Shown here: positions 13,177 to 21,780 of the stretch, piece after piece
Layout of the letters: each line of letters starts with the position of its first letter
How positions within the stretch are numbered: the first letter of the stretch is position 1
The notes under the pieces: model-generated
Seen by the model: the letters and a program-made list of their open reading frames with translations, nothing else
Database searches by the model: none
Told to the model about the DNA's origin: nothing
Translations under genes and position numbers: made by a program
From: Gilvimarinus chinensis DSM 19667
GTDB lineage: Bacteria > Pseudomonadota > Gammaproteobacteria > Pseudomonadales > Cellvibrionaceae
DNA length: 64,000 nucleotides
Reading direction: 5' to 3'
Assembly (NCBI RefSeq): GCF_000377745.1
Contig: NZ_KB898706.1
Coordinates: 1,206,249 to 1,270,248 of the forward strand

Positions 13177-13767
13177 ATGGATATTGGCAGATCACTGTCT
13201 GGGCGTTTTTCCCTTTTAGGCGTGGGATTTTTAGCGCTGAGCATTTTAATACTGGGGGCTTGCACCTCTCAGACGCAAACGCCGCTCGATTCACCCTATA
13301 CCAGCTCTTTTATTTCGGTGAGTGAACCCGGCTTTAAGCCCAGGAAAGGTGACAGTTTTGCTTGGCTGGGCAAGGCAGAAATTATCGCTGATGCTGACCA
13401 TAATATAAAACCTGAAACCCTGAAGCACTTGCGCAACCGGTTTGAACAGAATATGCGTGCCCAGGGGTACCAAATCACACCCTCAAAAAACAGCGCCAAC
13501 TATTTGATCAGCGCCGCGATCATTCTCGGGAATCCCATTACTGAGCGAGAGCTGGTGGAAAAGTTTGATATCGCCCCTTCTTTGTCGGGTAGCGGTGAAT
13601 ATGATGCGGGTACATTGGTTCTGCGCTTATTATCACCTGGTAGTTTACGCACACAATGGCGGGGTGCCATCGAGATATTTACCGACCCGAATCAAAATAT
13701 CGGTGAAAGGCAGCGCCGCGTAGACAGTGCGGTGGATACGTTTACCCGGCATTTGCACCCCAAATAG
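13177..13767 (+). CDS. Outer-membrane-type lipoprotein, DUF4136-like
   Basis: 196 residues with a signal peptide ending in a lipobox (ILGAC, Cys29). The mature part is compact, with features seen in DUF4136-type periplasmic lipoproteins. These include an FAWLGKAEI start, a central helix with NRFEQNMRAQGYQI, and a late W-R-G-A-I-E strand with a C-terminal helix RQRRVDSAVDTFTRHL. The family assignment is tentative and no function is known. It lies 16 bases after tlyA with a GGAAGGA ribosome site, so it is probably the last gene of that unit. Confidence 0.7.
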   Translation: MDIGRSLSGRFSLLGVGFLALSILILGACTSQTQTPLDSPYTSSFISVSEPGFKPRKGDSFAWLGKAEIIADADHNIKPETLKHLRNRFEQNMRAQGYQITPSKNSANYLISAAIILGNPITERELVEKFDIAPSLSGSGEYDAGTLVLRLLSPGSLRTQWRGAIEIFTDPNQNIGERQRRVDSAVDTFTRHLHPK

Positions 13768-13805: not shown

Positions 13806-13821
13806 TGTGATGTGAGTCACA
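13806..13821. promoter_or_regulatory. Consensus CRP/Vfr-type binding site upstream of the exoprotein
   Basis: TGTGA-TGTGAG-TCACA matches the symmetric CRP core TGTGA-N6-TCACA exactly. Its centre is about 64 bases before the exoprotein ATG at 13878. Control of the secretion locus by cAMP-CRP is an inference from this match. Confidence 0.65.
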
Positions 13822-13877: not shown

Positions 13878-16800
13878 ATGAACCGCCTTCAAAAGCCGTT
13901 ACTGAGCGCTGACTCAGCCAACCCAAGTCAAGTCATTAAGCCCTCAAACTCGCGCGCAACGCTTCGTCCGTTAGCGCTCGCAATGGCAGTGGCTGCCATA
14001 AGTCAGGGGGTTGTGGCGGGTCCCGATGGCGGCGTGGTTACCGACGGTAGCGCGAATATTATTCACAGTGGCAATATCACCGACATCTCTCAACACAGCC
14101 AGAACATTACCGTGGTGTGGGATAACTTCGATATCGATGTGAATGAGGTGGTTAACTTCCTGCAGCCCAACAGCCAGTCTCTGGCGTTGAACCGAGTGTT
14201 AAGCGCGGACGGTACGCAAATTAATGGTCAGTTAAACGCGAACGGCCGGGTGTTTGTGTTGGATGCCAATGGTGTTCTGTTTGGGCAAGACGCCCAGGTA
14301 AACGTGGGCAGCTTAGTGGCCTCTACGCTGGATCTTAGCCACAGCGACTATGACACCAACACCTTTACCTTCGCCGGTGGCGACACCCCCGCCGCAGTCA
14401 CTAACCTCGGAACGATAACAGCAGCCGACACCGGCGCGGTGGCGCTGCTGGGTGGTCGGGTCAGTAACTATGGCGTGATTCAAGCCAAGCTTGGCAACGT
14501 CGCCCTGGCGGCGGGTCAGCAAGTGACACTGGATTTTGCCGGCGATGGCTTATTGAACGTTCAGGTGGACGAAGCGGCGCTGGGCGCTCTGGCGGAAAAC
14601 CACGGCCTGATAAAAGCTGACGGCGGTCAGGTATTGATGACCGCTCATGCCAGCGATGCCCTACTGCAAACCGTGGTCAACAACACTGGCGTAATTGAAG
14701 CGCAAACCCTGCAAGAAAAAGACGGCAAAATCATGCTGCTGGGCGGTATGACGCCAGAGACCGGTGGCATCGTGCGCGTCTCGGGCACTCTGGATGCCAG
14801 CGCACCCACCGAGGGTGATGGCGGCTTTATTGACACCTCCGGCGCTATTGTCAAAGTTGGCGCCGATGCCCAGATAAACACCGCCAGCGCCAATGGCGCG
14901 GCTGGCACCTGGCTGCTTGATCCTACGGACCTAGAGATCAGCTACGATGCTATGGGCGCCGATGACGATGTCAGCCACACTCACACCCAGGCGCTGCAAA
15001 ACGCCCTGGAATCCGGCAACGTGATTCTGGAAACTGCCGACGCTGGCGGTGGCGCCGGTGATATCACAGTGGTTGACCCTATTGTCTGGGCGAGTAGCAA
15101 CACTTTGACTCTGGACGCCGACGGCGGTATCGCCTTTAACGATTATCTGCATGCCCCCAGTGGCGGGCTCAGCCTCAACGCAGTGGGCGACATCTCAACC
15201 GGCGCCGAAGGTCATATCAATGTAGGTACCTTTACTCTTGATTCAGGTAACTTCGAGCAAATTGCCGCCACCCTGCCCACCTTTATGGCTGATGACTTTG
15301 TCATTAACGGCGGCACCTTTACCCGTGCCACCGGCGGTAGTGTGGGCGGCGCGACGCTGCAAATTACCGATATATATGGGTTACAGGGCCTGGATACCAC
15401 ACCGACTGCCGATGCCGTTTTGACGAACGATATTGATGCTTCCGGCACCGCCGGCTGGAATGGCGGTGCGGGTTTTAACCCAATTGGCGACGATATCGTC
15501 CAATATTCAGGCACTTTTGATGGCCAAGGCCATACGATAGATGGCCTGACGATCAACCGGCCGGGTGAAAACTACGTTGGGCTTTTCGGCTATCTTGGCG
15601 CCGCGTCGACTGTCTCAAACCTTGGGTTGGAGAGCGTAAATATCACCGGTCAAGCTAGGGTTGCTGGCTTAACCGGGCAAAACAACGGTACGGTTGAACA
15701 CAGTTTTATTACAGGTTCTGTGTCCGGTGTCGGTTCAGTCGGTGGTGTGGTTGGTTTAAACCTTGGAACTGTAACCCATGTGTACTCGACCGCATCGGTC
15801 TCAGGCGATACCTATGTCGGCGGGTTGGTGGGTGAAAACCTGTTGACCATAACCGATAGCTACGCCTCAGGCGCTGTATCGGGTACAACCGATACTGGCG
15901 GGCTTGTAGGCCTTAATTATAACTTGGGGGATGTATCGGACAGTTACTGGGATGGTTTTACCTCTACCCAGGGAAGCACTGGTGTTGGTAGTAACACTGC
16001 GACGTTTACCGCAACAGAAGTGAATGGCGACTGGAGTGGTGCAGAAGATGCCTACAGTGAAGCCACCTACGCAAATTTGGATTTTACCACCGATTGGTTT
16101 ATCGCCGAGGGCAGCTCTCGCCCTATGCTGCGCGCCTTTTTGGATGGCGGCAATATCTCCAATCTTTACCAACTGCAAGGTATGGCTGCTGACTTAGCAG
16201 GTACTTATACCCTTCTCAACGATATCGACGCCTCGGACACGGCCTCTACCGATAATGCTGATGTATGGGGTGGGCGGGGTTTTGCGCCTGTGGGTACTTT
16301 AGGTGGTGAATTTAGCGGTAATCTCGATGGTCAGGGTTTTGTGATCGACGGCCTCACCATCGCCCGGCCCGACCAAAGTTATGTGGGCTTGTTTGGCAGG
16401 ATTGAGAGCGCCGCCTCTACTATCCAAAACTTAGGTTTGACCAATGTTAATGTTGAAGGTCAAGGCTTTGTAGGTGGTATAGCGGGATCTGCTGTGGGCA
16501 ATAGCGGCAGCCTTATTCTTAGCAATGTTTTTGCCGAAGGCTCGGTTACCGGCTCTGCAAATCGAATAGGCGGGCTTGTTGGCTACTTAGCTGGAGTTAA
16601 TGGCGGTAGCGGCTCCATTCAGCAAAGCTACGCTGCAGTCGATGTTACTAGCTTTCGCTTTTTCGTGGGAGGTTTGGTAGGTCAATCTCTCGGTTCGATT
16701 CAAACGAGCTACGCTACGGGTTCGGTAGATGGTGCGGGAAGTGTCGGCGGTTTAGTTGGATGGATGGATATTGGCAGCATTACCGATAGCTATGCTACGG

Positions 16801-19800
16801 GCGCTGTCAACGCCCTTACTGATTATGCAGGCGGATTGGTTGGTACATTGTTTAGTGGCTCAATCAGCCGTAGTTGGGCCAGTGGGGAAGTTACTGCCAT
16901 TCCTGGGTCAACTGGGGGGTTAGTTGGTCTAAATGACGCTCTTGAATCACTAACGGGTAACTATTGGGATAGTGAAACCACAGGCCAAAATGATGCTTCC
17001 TCTACAGGCGATTATGGCGCAATAGCGGTAAATGGCGATTGGGCCGCCGCTCCGGATGCCTACAACGAAGCTTCCTACACCGGCTTTGATTTTACCAACG
17101 ACTGGTTTATCGCCGAGGGCTCATCCCGTCCTATGCTGCGGGCCTTCCTTTCTGGCGGCGGCGAAATCCATAACCTTTACGACTTGCAGGGTATGGCTGC
17201 CGATATGGGGGCCAGTTACTCCCTGATGTCCGACATCGACGCCTCGGCTACGGCCGTCAGTGTGGCAGCCGGTAATAGCGGTGATTATTCCGATGTATGG
17301 GGCGGCCGTGGTTTTGCACCTATCGCCAATAACTCTGTGAATTTTCAGGGTTCTGTTAATGGGCAGAACCTTGTTGTGAATGATCTGACCATCAACCGGC
17401 CTGATCAGTTTTTGGTTGGGTTGATCGGTCTGATGGACACTACCGGTCAAATACAGAATGTGGGTTTGGTCAACGCCGATATTACTGGCGGTGATGTCGT
17501 AGGCGGTTTAGTTGGTTGGAGTTTTGCCGGCAGTAGCATCAGTAACAGTTTTGTGACTGGGACAATTAATGGCGATAACCGTGTTGGCGGGGTCATTGGC
17601 GACAGCAATTCAGATATCAGCAATAGCTACTCCGTTGCCAATGTAACCGCGGCCACCGGCAGCGCCGGTGGGTTGGCAGGTTTGTACTTCTCGGGCACGC
17701 TAAGTAACAGCTATGCCATAGGTAGTGTGACCGGGGGCACTGATGTTGGTGGTTTAGTCGGTACCAACAGTGCAAACATCACCACTAGCTTCTGGAACAG
17801 CGCAAACGCCAGTGGGTTTGGCTCAAATACAGGTACCGTCGACGCTGAGAGTGCAGGTTTGACGTTAACCGAGTTTACAGAGCCTACATCATTCGCCGCT
17901 TGGGGGGCAGACATTGACGCCGAGGGCGGCACAGGTTCAGTGTGGCGTATCTACGAAGGTCACAGCGCTCCGCTGTTGCGCTCCTTCTTAACCGAAATCG
18001 ATGTCATTGCTTACGACGATTACAAAGTCTACGACGGCAATCCCTACGATGGTCTTCACGATATCAACGCCACTACCGGTGCCGGTGTTCGTTACGGCAA
18101 TAGCTACGCCGAGTTTGTTTCTGTGTTTGGTGAGAACGGCACACCTTACAGCTCGGATGATATCAACAGCGCCGATCTGGAATACACAGGTGATTCCCAG
18201 GGTGCGGTGGATGCCGGCACTTACAGCATTACTCCAACTGAGCTTTGGTCCAACCAAAGCGGTTACGACATAGTTGTCACCGACGGTGTGCTCACTATCG
18301 ATCAGGCGGTGGTGAGCGTTACGGTAACCATTGATGATGCCAGTAAAGAGTACGGCGATGCCGACCCTAATTTTAGTTGGCGAGTTACTTCGGGCTCATT
18401 GGGTGAGGGGGATACTCTGACCGGCTCTTTGTACCGTGACCCAGGTGAAAATGTCGGCACCTACGATATCCACGGCAACATCACCGGTGACCTTGCTTCA
18501 TCTAATTACATCGTGACCCTTAACGAAGGCGTGTTTACCATTACACCACGCGCTATCACCATCAGTATTGATGATTTAAGCAAAGTCTACGGCGAGTTGG
18601 ACCCAGAGCTCACCTACTCTGTTAATGGTTCGGCGGTAAGCGGAGATACGCTGGCGGTGTCGCTCACGCGCGAGGCCGGTGAAAACGTTGGCGATTACGC
18701 CATTACCGGTGAGGTGAGTGGCGATGCCGCAGGCGATAATTACAGCGTCACCTTTAGCGATGGTTTGTTCACCATTACGCCGCGCGCCGTTACCATCAGC
18801 ATCAGCGAATTGGAAAAAATTTACGGCGATGATGACCCGGAACTGACCTGGGCTGTGACTGAAGGCAGCCTCGCCCCCGGTGAAACTCTGCAGGGTACCC
18901 TTAGCCGCGCTGAGGGTGAAAACGTAGGTGGTTATGCCATTAACGGCGAACTGAGTGGTGCTGTAGCCAGTGACAACTACGCGGTTACGTTAAACGACGG
19001 CATGCTCACGATTAACCCGCGGCCCATTATCATCAGCGCCGATGACCTGGCGAAAATTTACGGCCAGCAGGACCCGGAGCTCACCTACACACAAACTGGC
19101 AATCTCGCGTTCGATGACACCATGACCGTGGCGCTGCAACGGGCTGAGGGCTCCGATGTGGGTGTTTACACCATTACCCCAACGGTGAGCGGCGATGTTC
19201 AATCCGACAACTACGCCCTGAGCGTGACGAATGGTGCGCTGCAGATTACCCCGGCCCAACTAACGGTCACAGCTGAAGATGTAGAAACCTATTGGGATTT
19301 ATTACCGGATGAGTTTCCAACCTTAATCGACGGCTTAACCAATGGCGATACCGAACAAGACGTGTTTGGCAATAGCTTGACCGTGGAAACGGATTTAACC
19401 CTGCCGATCCCCGGTGACTACACCCTGACGCCCATCGCCACTCTGGCGAGTAATAACTACACCGTCAGCTTTGTGGATGGCGTTTTGACGTTACTGAGCT
19501 CAAACCCGGGTACGGGCTATGGCGATGGTTTGACCAGCACCCAGCTGCCTGCTCGTGAATCCTTAGGCCGTGAAGATCGTGCCAACATCTATGAAGGTCG
19601 CGCCTTGCTCGATGGTGCGCAGGATGAGATTTCTCTTGGCGTCATGAGCGGCGGCACTCGCATGAACGAACAAGAGTTGATGGATATCGGCTTACCCATG
19701 CCGCGCGCGGTTTTGTTCGCGATCAACAGCGCTGAGATCGAACCCATGTATGCCGACATGCTACAGGCGTTCGTGAACAAGTTAGCGAATTATCCCGACT

Positions 19801-20060
19801 TAACCCTACTGATTGAGGGGCATACCTCCAAAACTGGCCCTTTGTTGCTTAACCAGAAGTTGGCACGCCAGCGTGCTATGGCGGTGTATAACTATTTGAT
19901 TGAGCTGGGTATCGATCCCGGTCGATTGGGCACTAAAGGGTTTGATTGGCGGCACCCGATTGGAGACAACAGCACCCTTGAGGGACGGGCATTGAACCGC
20001 CGCGCCGAAATAACCCCCGATCAGCCGCGCAACGACGGGGAGCAAAACAATGATCAGTAA
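13878..20060 (+). CDS. Two-partner-secretion exoprotein (TpsA) with GLUG-like and MBG-like repeats and an OmpA-like C-terminus
   Basis: Giant surface or secreted protein of 2060 residues. An extended signal region (about 1-48) leads to the TPS haemagglutination domain (about 48-330) with LNRVLS, GRVFVLDANGVLFGQDAQV and NVGSLVAS, which the partner transporter recognises. Residues about 495-1370 hold three long modules of GLUG-like repeats (VGGLVG, SYATGSV). Residues about 1372-1875 hold a YDG/MBG-type array with four clear repeats (KVYGELDPELTY, GENVGDYAITG, NYSVTF) and a degenerate fifth. Residues about 1935-2055 resemble the OmpA peptidoglycan-binding domain (VLFAINSAEIEP, LARQRAMAVYNYL, GRALNRRAEI). 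ATG 13878 follows AAGAGGAT; the longer GTG start at 13812 is unlikely. The last bases overlap an upstream ATG of the transporter reading frame. Confidence 0.9.
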   Translation: MNRLQKPLLSADSANPSQVIKPSNSRATLRPLALAMAVAAISQGVVAGPDGGVVTDGSANIIHSGNITDISQHSQNITVVWDNFDIDVNEVVNFLQPNSQSLALNRVLSADGTQINGQLNANGRVFVLDANGVLFGQDAQVNVGSLVASTLDLSHSDYDTNTFTFAGGDTPAAVTNLGTITAADTGAVALLGGRVSNYGVIQAKLGNVALAAGQQVTLDFAGDGLLNVQVDEAALGALAENHGLIKADGGQVLMTAHASDALLQTVVNNTGVIEAQTLQEKDGKIMLLGGMTPETGGIVRVSGTLDASAPTEGDGGFIDTSGAIVKVGADAQINTASANGAAGTWLLDPTDLEISYDAMGADDDVSHTHTQALQNALESGNVILETADAGGGAGDITVVDPIVWASSNTLTLDADGGIAFNDYLHAPSGGLSLNAVGDISTGAEGHINVGTFTLDSGNFEQIAATLPTFMADDFVINGGTFTRATGGSVGGATLQITDIYGLQGLDTTPTADAVLTNDIDASGTAGWNGGAGFNPIGDDIVQYSGTFDGQGHTIDGLTINRPGENYVGLFGYLGAASTVSNLGLESVNITGQARVAGLTGQNNGTVEHSFITGSVSGVGSVGGVVGLNLGTVTHVYSTASVSGDTYVGGLVGENLLTITDSYASGAVSGTTDTGGLVGLNYNLGDVSDSYWDGFTSTQGSTGVGSNTATFTATEVNGDWSGAEDAYSEATYANLDFTTDWFIAEGSSRPMLRAFLDGGNISNLYQLQGMAADLAGTYTLLNDIDASDTASTDNADVWGGRGFAPVGTLGGEFSGNLDGQGFVIDGLTIARPDQSYVGLFGRIESAASTIQNLGLTNVNVEGQGFVGGIAGSAVGNSGSLILSNVFAEGSVTGSANRIGGLVGYLAGVNGGSGSIQQSYAAVDVTSFRFFVGGLVGQSLGSIQTSYATGSVDGAGSVGGLVGWMDIGSITDSYATGAVNALTDYAGGLVGTLFSGSISRSWASGEVTAIPGSTGGLVGLNDALESLTGNYWDSETTGQNDASSTGDYGAIAVNGDWAAAPDAYNEASYTGFDFTNDWFIAEGSSRPMLRAFLSGGGEIHNLYDLQGMAADMGASYSLMSDIDASATAVSVAAGNSGDYSDVWGGRGFAPIANNSVNFQGSVNGQNLVVNDLTINRPDQFLVGLIGLMDTTGQIQNVGLVNADITGGDVVGGLVGWSFAGSSISNSFVTGTINGDNRVGGVIGDSNSDISNSYSVANVTAATGSAGGLAGLYFSGTLSNSYAIGSVTGGTDVGGLVGTNSANITTSFWNSANASGFGSNTGTVDAESAGLTLTEFTEPTSFAAWGADIDAEGGTGSVWRIYEGHSAPLLRSFLTEIDVIAYDDYKVYDGNPYDGLHDINATTGAGVRYGNSYAEFVSVFGENGTPYSSDDINSADLEYTGDSQGAVDAGTYSITPTELWSNQSGYDIVVTDGVLTIDQAVVSVTVTIDDASKEYGDADPNFSWRVTSGSLGEGDTLTGSLYRDPGENVGTYDIHGNITGDLASSNYIVTLNEGVFTITPRAITISIDDLSKVYGELDPELTYSVNGSAVSGDTLAVSLTREAGENVGDYAITGEVSGDAAGDNYSVTFSDGLFTITPRAVTISISELEKIYGDDDPELTWAVTEGSLAPGETLQGTLSRAEGENVGGYAINGELSGAVASDNYAVTLNDGMLTINPRPIIISADDLAKIYGQQDPELTYTQTGNLAFDDTMTVALQRAEGSDVGVYTITPTVSGDVQSDNYALSVTNGALQITPAQLTVTAEDVETYWDLLPDEFPTLIDGLTNGDTEQDVFGNSLTVETDLTLPIPGDYTLTPIATLASNNYTVSFVDGVLTLLSSNPGTGYGDGLTSTQLPARESLGREDRANIYEGRALLDGAQDEISLGVMSGGTRMNEQELMDIGLPMPRAVLFAINSAEIEPMYADMLQAFVNKLANYPDLTLLIEGHTSKTGPLLLNQKLARQRAMAVYNYLIELGIDPGRLGTKGFDWRHPIGDNSTLEGRALNRRAEITPDQPRNDGEQNNDQ
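15364..17990 (+). repeat. Three tandem GLUG-type modules inside the exoprotein gene
   Basis: Three related coding modules begin near 15370, 16153 and 17170. Each opens with a Y-x-L-Q-G segment, runs through N/S-D-I-D-A-S and a LTI(N/A)RP segment, and continues in VGGLVG-type repeats. The first two end in nearly the same sentence, DWFIAEGSSRPMLRAFL (nt about 16090-16141 and 17098-17153). Similarity remains visible in the DNA, so unequal recombination could change module number. Confidence 0.7.
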
Positions 20061-20109
20061 CACAATTACCGATAGCACATTGACCAGTAAAACAACACAA
20101 GGCATTTCC

Positions 20110-21780
20110 ATGACGGTAAAACGGATCAGCTCAGTTTCAATGCTTACCTTGGCAGGGACGCTGGCCAGTGCGCAGGTATTGGCCCAAGTGGTGCCTAATG
20201 CCGGTACCTTTATCCGCGAGTTAGAAACCGAACCCGCGCCCGAGGTGCAAAGCAGCACCCTGGAGGTAGAGCTTCCCGAACAAACGCCCGCCTCGGCCAG
20301 CGACGAGGGTGGCCCTAGCGTGTCGGTAGAGCGCTTTGTCATCACCGGTAATCGCGCCATTGAGAGTGCCGAGCTGCTGGCGTTGGTGGAGGGGCAGCAG
20401 GGGCAATCGCTCACCCTCGGCCAGCTGCGTGAGCAGGCCGCAAAAATCACTACCTATTACCGCGAGCGCGGGTATTTTCTCGCCCGCGCTTATTTACCGC
20501 AGCAGGACGTCAGTAACGGAACCGTTACCATTGATGTGTTGGAAGGTCGCCTGGGTAAAGTCGATTTAAGCAACAGCTCACACACCGCAGATTTTGTGGT
20601 CAAGCGCCCCTTCCGCTCACTGGAGGCGGACACCATGCTGACCGCCGACACTCTGGAAACCCCACTGCTGCGCTTGTCAGACCTGCCCGGCCTTGCTGTT
20701 AACACGACCCTGGTGCCCGGTGAAGAAGTGGGCACCAGCGACTTAAAAGTGGATGTGGCACAGGGGCCGTGGGTGAACGGCACCGTCGAGCTGGATAACT
20801 ACGGCAACGAATCCATCGGCGAGTACCGTTTGGGCGGTAGCTTGCAGGTCAACAGCCCCCTCGGGCTTGGGGATCGCTTCGACCTTCGCGCCCTGGGCAG
20901 CGATGAAGAGCAGGTGTTCTTCCGCGCGCAGTACCAAATGCCGGTAGGCCCCTGGGCCACCAACATTGGTGCCGCCTACTCAGATATGGACTACGAGCTG
21001 GGTGGCAACTTTGAAGAGCTGGACGCCACCGGGAACGCGCAGATCACCACCGTGTTTGCCGATCAATCCTTAATCCGCACGCGCGAACTGAACCTCAACG
21101 TACAGCTTCAGTACGACAGCAAAGAGCTGCAGGATGAAATCGACGCCTTTGGTTCGGACAGCCAAAAAGAATCTGAGCTTTACACCCTGACGCTGAACGG
21201 CGACTGGCGCGATCAGTTCCTGGGCGGCGGTGTGACTCAGTGGGCGCTGGCTTATACCTGGGGTGAGTTAACCCTTAACTCCTACCTCGACCAAGTCATC
21301 GACTCGGTCACCGCGCAAACCGCCGGTGATTTTGAGCGCTGGATGCCCTCGATTATGCGTTTGCAAAACCTCGGTGGTAATTGGAGTTTGCACGGGCAAA
21401 TCCACGGTCAGTTTGCGGATAAAAACCTCGACTCCTCAGAGAAAATCAGCCTGGGGGGAGCCTACGGCGTGCGCGCCTACGCTCAGGGTGAAGCCACAGG
21501 GGATGAGGGCTACATTGCCAACCTGGAGTTGCGCTACAGCCTCAATAGCCAGTGGCAGGTGTTTGGTTTAGCGGATTACGGCCGGGTAATGATCAACAAA
21601 ACCCCCTGGGAGGGTATTACCGACGACGACCGCGAGCTGTCCGGTGCGGGCCTGGGTGCGCGCTTTAACAGCAGGCATTGGCACCTGAGCGCCACCGCTG
21701 CCGCGCCTTTGGACAACAAAGACACGGTGGGCGATGACGATGATGTGCGTCTGTTTGCCCGAGTCGCCTGGAAGTTTTGA
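20110..21780 (+). CDS. Two-partner-secretion outer-membrane transporter (TpsB, FhaC/ShlB family)
   Basis: Omp85-superfamily beta-barrel that exports the preceding exoprotein. With the ATG at 20110 the protein has 556 residues and a clean signal peptide ending ASAQVLAQ. An in-frame ATG at 20050 overlaps the exoprotein stop by 11 bases but would bury the signal. A POTRA_2-type region lies at about residues 70-150 (VERFVITGNRAIESAELLAL, YYRERGYFLARAYLP, TIDVLEGRLG). The ShlB barrel follows with LDNYGNESIGEYRLGG and ends in an aromatic residue (VAWKF), as outer-membrane barrels do. A strong terminator follows. Confidence 0.92.
   Translation: MTVKRISSVSMLTLAGTLASAQVLAQVVPNAGTFIRELETEPAPEVQSSTLEVELPEQTPASASDEGGPSVSVERFVITGNRAIESAELLALVEGQQGQSLTLGQLREQAAKITTYYRERGYFLARAYLPQQDVSNGTVTIDVLEGRLGKVDLSNSSHTADFVVKRPFRSLEADTMLTADTLETPLLRLSDLPGLAVNTTLVPGEEVGTSDLKVDVAQGPWVNGTVELDNYGNESIGEYRLGGSLQVNSPLGLGDRFDLRALGSDEEQVFFRAQYQMPVGPWATNIGAAYSDMDYELGGNFEELDATGNAQITTVFADQSLIRTRELNLNVQLQYDSKELQDEIDAFGSDSQKESELYTLTLNGDWRDQFLGGGVTQWALAYTWGELTLNSYLDQVIDSVTAQTAGDFERWMPSIMRLQNLGGNWSLHGQIHGQFADKNLDSSEKISLGGAYGVRAYAQGEATGDEGYIANLELRYSLNSQWQVFGLADYGRVMINKTPWEGITDDDRELSGAGLGARFNSRHWHLSATAAAPLDNKDTVGDDDDVRLFARVAWKF

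Follow-up and report, generated by a model that had tools for sequence, protein, structure and literature searches.

An OmpA-like domain at the C-terminus of a two-partner-secretion exoprotein in Gilvimarinus chinensis

How a TpsA fibre, the exoprotein of two-partner secretion (TPS, type Vb), is kept at the cell surface has been worked out for few proteins. The described solutions are a disulphide hook and a retained prodomain. The subject here is a TpsA of Gilvimarinus chinensis DSM 19667 whose C-terminus is an OmpA-like domain. Its gene, tpsA, lies together with the partner gene tpsB in a stretch of 64,000 nucleotides, positions 1,206,249 to 1,270,248 of the forward strand of contig NZ_KB898706.1. 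This whole stretch is called the window, and coordinates are those of the window unless a contig or locus is named.

FhaB of Bordetella is similar to the window TpsA in having a TPS domain and a partner TpsB, and it keeps its C-terminal prodomain periplasmic (PMC8263021). It differs in that DegP and CtpA degrade this prodomain of about 1200 residues, and the available sections of the same paper describe no OmpA domain in FhaB (PMC8263021). The C-terminal part of CdiA likewise stays inside the attacker cell at rest (PMC7690452). HMW1, HxuA and CdrA are held at the surface through their C-termini, with the end expected at the TpsB pore. In HxuA, as in HMW1, the C-terminus is expected to be periplasmic and to lock in that pore, while the CdrA tail is called periplasmic (PMC5422565) and is cut by LapG (PMC5422565; PMC4694147).

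HMW1 and HxuA anchor themselves by a disulphide loop, whereas the window TpsA has no Cys at all after its ATG start; the sole Cys of a longer, GTG-started frame lies upstream of the ATG. The two Cys near the C-terminus that mark an HMW1-type anchor are therefore absent, and a disulphide hook is not usable. Another parallel is found outside type Vb. Intimin and invasin (type Ve) resemble the proposed window fibre as type V adhesins with a peptidoglycan-binding periplasmic domain (PMC3008723). They differ in carrying their own barrel, and their periplasmic domain is N-terminal and a LysM instead of an OmpA.

The available sections of the literature searched describe neither an OmpA nor a LysM at the C-terminus of a TpsA. 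The nearest statements concern toxins: some toxin polypeptides contain LysM or other domains that bind peptidoglycan, and OmpA forms the extreme C-terminus in toxins of a different delivery system (PMC3482391).

The fused domain and its ligand site

Judged by its domains, the window open reading frame (ORF) is a TpsA exoprotein of type Vb, with secretion through its partner predicted. It has an N-terminal TPS domain, and the adjoining TpsB has POTRA domains and a ShlB/FhaC barrel. The same ORF also matches MBG_2 and GLUG in Pfam. A first-pass annotation, made from the letters of the window, had placed an OmpA-like domain at the C-terminus of this protein, at 19690-20060. That span corresponds to the OmpA domain, at 19713-20000, plus a short tail, and the motifs named for it (VLFAINSAEIEP, NQKLARQRAMAVYNYL, GHTS and RRAEI) are all present in the translation. 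The profile search that it had proposed gave a significant match to PF00691 (58.7 bits, E 7.6e-16, cut-off 27.2) at residues 1968-2063 of the 2082-residue, GTG-started ORF. The profile is covered in full, from 1 to 98, and no stop interrupts the frame (contig coordinates C1:1225961-1226248 of the own genome, G000). The best NCBIfam match of the domain is YiaD, at 97.7 bits and so under that model's own cut-off of 175. The closest PDB sequence is the Acinetobacter Omp38/OmpA domain (3td3 group, 83.8 bits).

Structure prediction, also proposed beforehand, returned an OmpA fold. The AlphaFold model, built from 56 rows of OmpA domains with that of the window first, has a mean predicted local distance difference test score (pLDDT) of 85.4 and a predicted template modelling score of 0.79; an earlier model from 7 rows had reached a pLDDT of 62.2. 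Its best structural match in the PDB is 3td5 (E 9.0e-13, root-mean-square deviation 1.1 Å over 104 columns, 44% identity), which is the domain with bound L-Ala-gamma-D-Glu-m-DAP-D-Ala-D-Ala. In a viral structure library the top matches were phage OmpA-like proteins, with nothing else useful. By profile and predicted structure, the tail is a true OmpA domain with an OmpA-like fold. It shares this fold, the GHT..TG motif and the Asn and Arg ligands with Acinetobacter OmpA/Omp38 (3td3-3td5) and YiaD. It differs from them in having Ser for the Asp ligand and in its carrier, a TpsA and not a porin or lipoprotein.

The ligand site can be compared with that of PorE, where the side chains of Asp576, Asn584 and Arg591 form hydrogen bonds with the stem peptide (PMC7192894). 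Ser1984, Asn1992 and Arg1999 of the window protein follow the same spacing, +8 and +15 from the Asp position. Two members of the Asp-Asn-Arg triad of peptidoglycan-binding OmpA domains are thus present, and the Asp is replaced. The first-pass annotation had read this change, GHTD to GHTS with the Arg kept, correctly, and Asn1992 can be added to what is kept. Across the seven tails that were aligned, the Asn, the Arg and the GHT-S-x-TG frame are invariant and Ser takes the place of Asp in each. The eighth copy, L068, agrees with them at these positions.

A wider set of 67 OmpA domains, which is a biased sample because it was gathered by similarity to the window domain, has Arg in all 67, Asp in 59 and Ser in 8, namely seven TpsA tails and one DUF937-OmpA protein of genome G104. 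The latter (L240:6416-7687) joins a DUF937 to an OmpA domain with GHTS replacing GHTD.

One pair allows a measurement, and in it the OmpA domain is under purifying selection. Compared with relative L060, the ratio of nonsynonymous to synonymous substitution rates is 0.086 for the OmpA domain, 0.08 for the linker, 0.045 for the MBG region, 0.035 for the TPS domain and 0.258 for the middle region; with L069, L066 and L067 the synonymous sites are saturated and yield no ratio for OmpA.

Distribution of the tail and the ends of other TpsA proteins

A taxonomic survey, the third check that had been proposed, was run on 144 genomes of the family Cellvibrionaceae. The whole tail (segment plus OmpA) occurs in 7 of them, in 8 copies, and nearly all of these belong to Gilvimarinus. 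The carriers are six of the eight genomes of the genus (G000, G043, G044, G046, G047 and G045, which has two copies) and one of the 136 others (G017, another genus), whose tail shows 48% identity. A TpsB ORF adjoins each of the eight copies. The TPS domain lies within the same open frame in seven; the G047 copy reaches a contig end, and its N-terminal part is off the contig.

The whole tail was also searched for in samples of 369 genomes from the class, 390 from the order and 398 from the phylum, a search that would miss a fusion with another linker. No genome apart from the own one gave a match that includes the beginning of the tail. The other matches listed there begin at position 20 or later of the 181-position model (most at 37 or later), cover mainly the OmpA part and stand mostly in ORFs of less than 500 residues. 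These even samples held few congeners, with the tail-less G042 listed in two of them. In a tree of 67 rows and 103 columns, whose bootstrap had not settled, seven tails form one clade with support 100/99 and a long stem of 1.33. The two tpsA copies of G045, L067 and L068, stand at different loci and are identical over their last 188 residues, and the TpsB proteins beside them are equally good matches to the window TpsB. This suggests a recent duplication or conversion.

A natural pair without the OmpA domain is found in the congener G042, where a TPS domain, MBG_2 and a TpsB are present and no OmpA match is seen. In a two-sequence comparison, the last 130 residues of this protein align with the last MBG repeat and the pre-OmpA segment of the window protein over 126 columns, with 37% identity and an E of 3e-20. 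The counterpart of the segment is thus the C-terminus of the G042 protein, which stops within a few residues after it. Its TpsB gene, whose product is 76-79% identical to the window TpsB, starts a few bases later and leaves no space for an OmpA remnant. Because the G042 pair ends at this point, the alignment makes the OmpA domain an end module behind a conserved C-terminal segment of TpsA, and either gain or loss of the module fits. The other neighbours of the G042 locus are unlike those of the window copy, and it may therefore be a paralogous locus.

The ends of other TpsA proteins in the family were taken from a census of 126 PF05860 proteins among the matches listed, with open frames of at least 800 residues and with the tail group and G042 left out. 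Ends were examined for 120; 96 of them have a stop within the piece and 24 run to the piece end. A Pfam search of 93 of these 96 ends, without the three that contain N bases, found LysM in four and CHAT in two; OmpA is absent among the 25 of 34 Pfam families listed for these ends. The first-pass annotation had stated that TpsA proteins normally carry no peptidoglycan-binding domain, which describes most of the ends seen and fails for the four with LysM.

The LysM-ended proteins come from G005, G127, G128 and G129 and have the TPS domain within their first 400 residues, at 88.7-100 bits. They are giants (L199 in G005, L214 in G128, L216 in G127 and L223 in G129; larger loci L244 and L241-L243), with open frames of 4219-6284 residues. 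ShlB/POTRA ORFs adjoin them in both cases scanned, G127 and G129. Whole-protein scans of the G128 and G127 proteins found LysM and missed TPS, probably through the filters that the program applies to long proteins.

Other ends follow other patterns. A cysteine hook, so named for its resemblance to the HMW1-type hook (two Cys, then an aromatic-Leu step near the end), is present in 14 of the 96 ends. A C-terminal motif of the D-P-A-I-F type, often followed by S-I-x-L-P-x-D-Q, is present in 37 and is possibly another type of anchor. Both patterns were widened after the ends had been viewed, and the narrower first versions gave 8 and 32 of 96, respectively. CHAT domains end the TPS-started frames of L215 (G049) and L218 (G116), which are 1454 and 1801 residues long.

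Five long OmpA-ended ORFs (G058, with 1745 residues, G456, G306, G509 and G217) were rejected as further fusions. They gave no TPS match, a negative that is not absolute because the same kind of scan, over whole proteins, overlooked the TPS of two giant TpsA proteins, and they have barrel, LRR, Ig-like or TSP3 domains. G058 has three TPS matches, all on contigs other than that of its long ORF. Long ORFs of G135/G136 (about 3.2 thousand residues), G194 and G152 were noted as ORFs only.

Layout of the locus

The features of the locus are collected in the table. The ATG is more likely the start of tpsA than an in-frame GTG at 13812, since the nearest relative, L060, starts at a matching MNR.

Features of the tpsA-tpsB locus in window coordinates (aa, amino acids)
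Feature	Position	Strand	Remarks
tpsA, two-partner-secretion exoprotein, 2060 aa	13878..20060	+	ATG start
Putative extended signal peptide, ends before GPDGG	13878..14018	+	read by eye, without a predictor
TPS secretion domain PF05860	14019..14747	+	111 bits, cut-off 33.5 (= G000 C1:1220267-1220995)
MBG_2 repeat region, five stretches	17997..19496	+	Pfam 225.8 bits; borders drawn by the author
Conserved segment, about 67 aa, between last MBG repeat and OmpA	19497..19697	+	
OmpA-like domain PF00691	19713..20000	+	ligand positions Ser1984 (19827), Asn1992 (19851), Arg1999 (19872)
Short C-terminal tail and stop	20001..20060	+	low predicted confidence
tpsB, POTRA_2 and ShlB transporter	20050..21780	+	PF03865 122.7 bits, PF08479 69.2 bits

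The tpsB frame overlaps the stop of tpsA, or begins at an inner ATG at 20110. The order tpsA then tpsB is the reverse of the usual order given in PMC3297439. Upstream of tpsA lie a DeoR-type regulator, glmS, tlyA and a DUF4136-like ORF. The last of these (13177-13767, between tlyA and tpsA) scores 28.0 bits, below the cut-off of 32.8, and L069 has an ORF of similar size at the same place. Outside the window, the own genome has a further TPS match in a short ORF of 175 residues (G000 C1:923988-924365; L072:3932-4456). The genes around it resemble those beside the copies in G042 and G047, and it may be what is left of a second locus.

In polymorphic toxin systems, a variable toxin end is followed by an immunity gene. 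A C-terminal Tox-OmpA toxin of this kind was rejected in view of the conserved tail and of tpsB directly 3' of it. Release of the LapG type was also rejected: the region near the tail has no conserved AAG motif, though the genome encodes a Peptidase_C93 protein. The LapG-like match lies outside the window, at G000 C9:6246-6590 (L246).

A proposed plug and tether

The model favoured here, at about even odds, is that the OmpA domain acts as a folded periplasmic plug and a cell-wall tether, at the place where TpsA proteins carry their anchors; its retention, its contact with the wall and the role as an adhesin are all putative. In this model, tpsA and tpsB would encode an adhesin-like type Vb surface fibre and its pore. 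The N-terminal TPS domain would start export and the GLUG/MBG body would get to the surface. The OmpA domain would then fold in the periplasm, halting export there, and would rest on or bind the cell wall via a diaminopimelate pocket with Asn, Arg and Ser. With Ser in the pocket, binding may be of lower strength or be adjusted to another stem peptide. The fibre would thus be held at the outer membrane and, loosely at least, by the wall.

Periplasmic retention of the OmpA end is likely by analogy, because the TpsA protein FhaB is known to retain its C-terminus there and HMW1 and HxuA are expected to do so. In addition, a globular, disulphide-containing protein fused to the C-terminus of a TpsA inhibited its secretion (PMC3297439). 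Strong peptidoglycan binding is less likely than retention. Some binding can be argued for, since the fold is kept together with two of the three ligand side chains, and the LysM domains that other genera carry in this position support a wall-binding purpose of such ends.

Several points weigh against the plug and tether. Ser stands at the Asp position in all eight tails, from both genera that carry the tail, whereas 59 of the 60 non-tail domains in the similarity-drawn sample have Asp; judged from these sequences, peptidoglycan binding by the Ser-carrying pocket is probably altered. For AbOmpA, isothermal titration calorimetry with D271A and R286A is reported to show that D271 and R286 are critical for binding (PMC6572160). 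The fusion that inhibited secretion had a disulphide (PMC3297439), whereas the OmpA domain has none, and the periplasmic placement of this domain is drawn from analogy. The fusion is also rare. An in-house OmpA model, applied to the end pieces of the other 120 TpsA proteins, found no OmpA domain (E <1). The model detects all eight tails at 105 bits or more and does not match the G042 protein, but the eight are not independent controls because its training set includes the seven tails. The LysM parallel comprises perhaps two independent cases, since the G005 match, at 20.9 bits, equals the cut-off and a single genus contributes three of the four proteins.

The Ser could also mark a lost ligand site. 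The domain would then be a plug only, a quick-folding periplasmic stop-transfer element and protease guard that has lost peptidoglycan binding. This explanation is rather unlikely, though it would suit the Ser shared by all eight tails, even the divergent one of the other genus, as well as the long stem branch of the clade, and the extreme C-terminus of FhaB does guard the prodomain against CtpA (PMC8263021). However, an invariant Asn, Arg and GHT-S-x-TG frame exceeds what a plug needs, going by the PorE structure, the main chain could still make a contact where the Asp stood (PMC7192894), and the LysM ends of other genera suggest wall binding. Another explanation, which follows the wall tether of the first-pass annotation, is an anchor of full strength that binds as OmpA or Pal does despite the Ser. 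The kept Asn and Arg speak for it, as does the closest structure, a peptide-bound AbOmpA; it is very doubtful given that Asp271 of that same protein is reported to be critical (PMC6572160) and the Ser found in every tail.

Alternately, the whole domain may cross TpsB and act at the surface, for example by binding peptidoglycan fragments or neighbours. No anchor of the window protein is proven, and OmpA domains ending the toxins of another delivery system are proposed to act on target peptidoglycan synthesis (PMC3482391). Full export is nonetheless improbable: secretion of a TpsA was inhibited when a globular protein was fused to its C-terminus (PMC3297439), the tail is conserved and not polymorphic, and the next gene is tpsB.

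The interpretation given in the first-pass annotation is thus partly supported. The OmpA fusion is real and conserved, is placed where relatives carry a cysteine hook (14 of 96) or LysM (four of 93), and is likely retained; strong anchoring is less likely, with Ser for Asp in all eight tails.

A broader proposal, offered tentatively, is that the C-termini of Cellvibrionaceae TpsA proteins may be a socket for interchangeable wall modules, with OmpA used by Gilvimarinus and a second genus and LysM by others. Some type Vb fibres would then be mechanically continuous from the cell exterior, across the outer membrane, to the peptidoglycan, and the Ser-carrying OmpA domain would be a tuned, releasable tether. 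Gilvimarinus provides a natural test pair, with the same TpsA-TpsB with and without OmpA. If the proposal is true, a C-terminal OmpA or LysM would be a direct wall link for type Vb adhesins, as is thought for the type Ve intimins.

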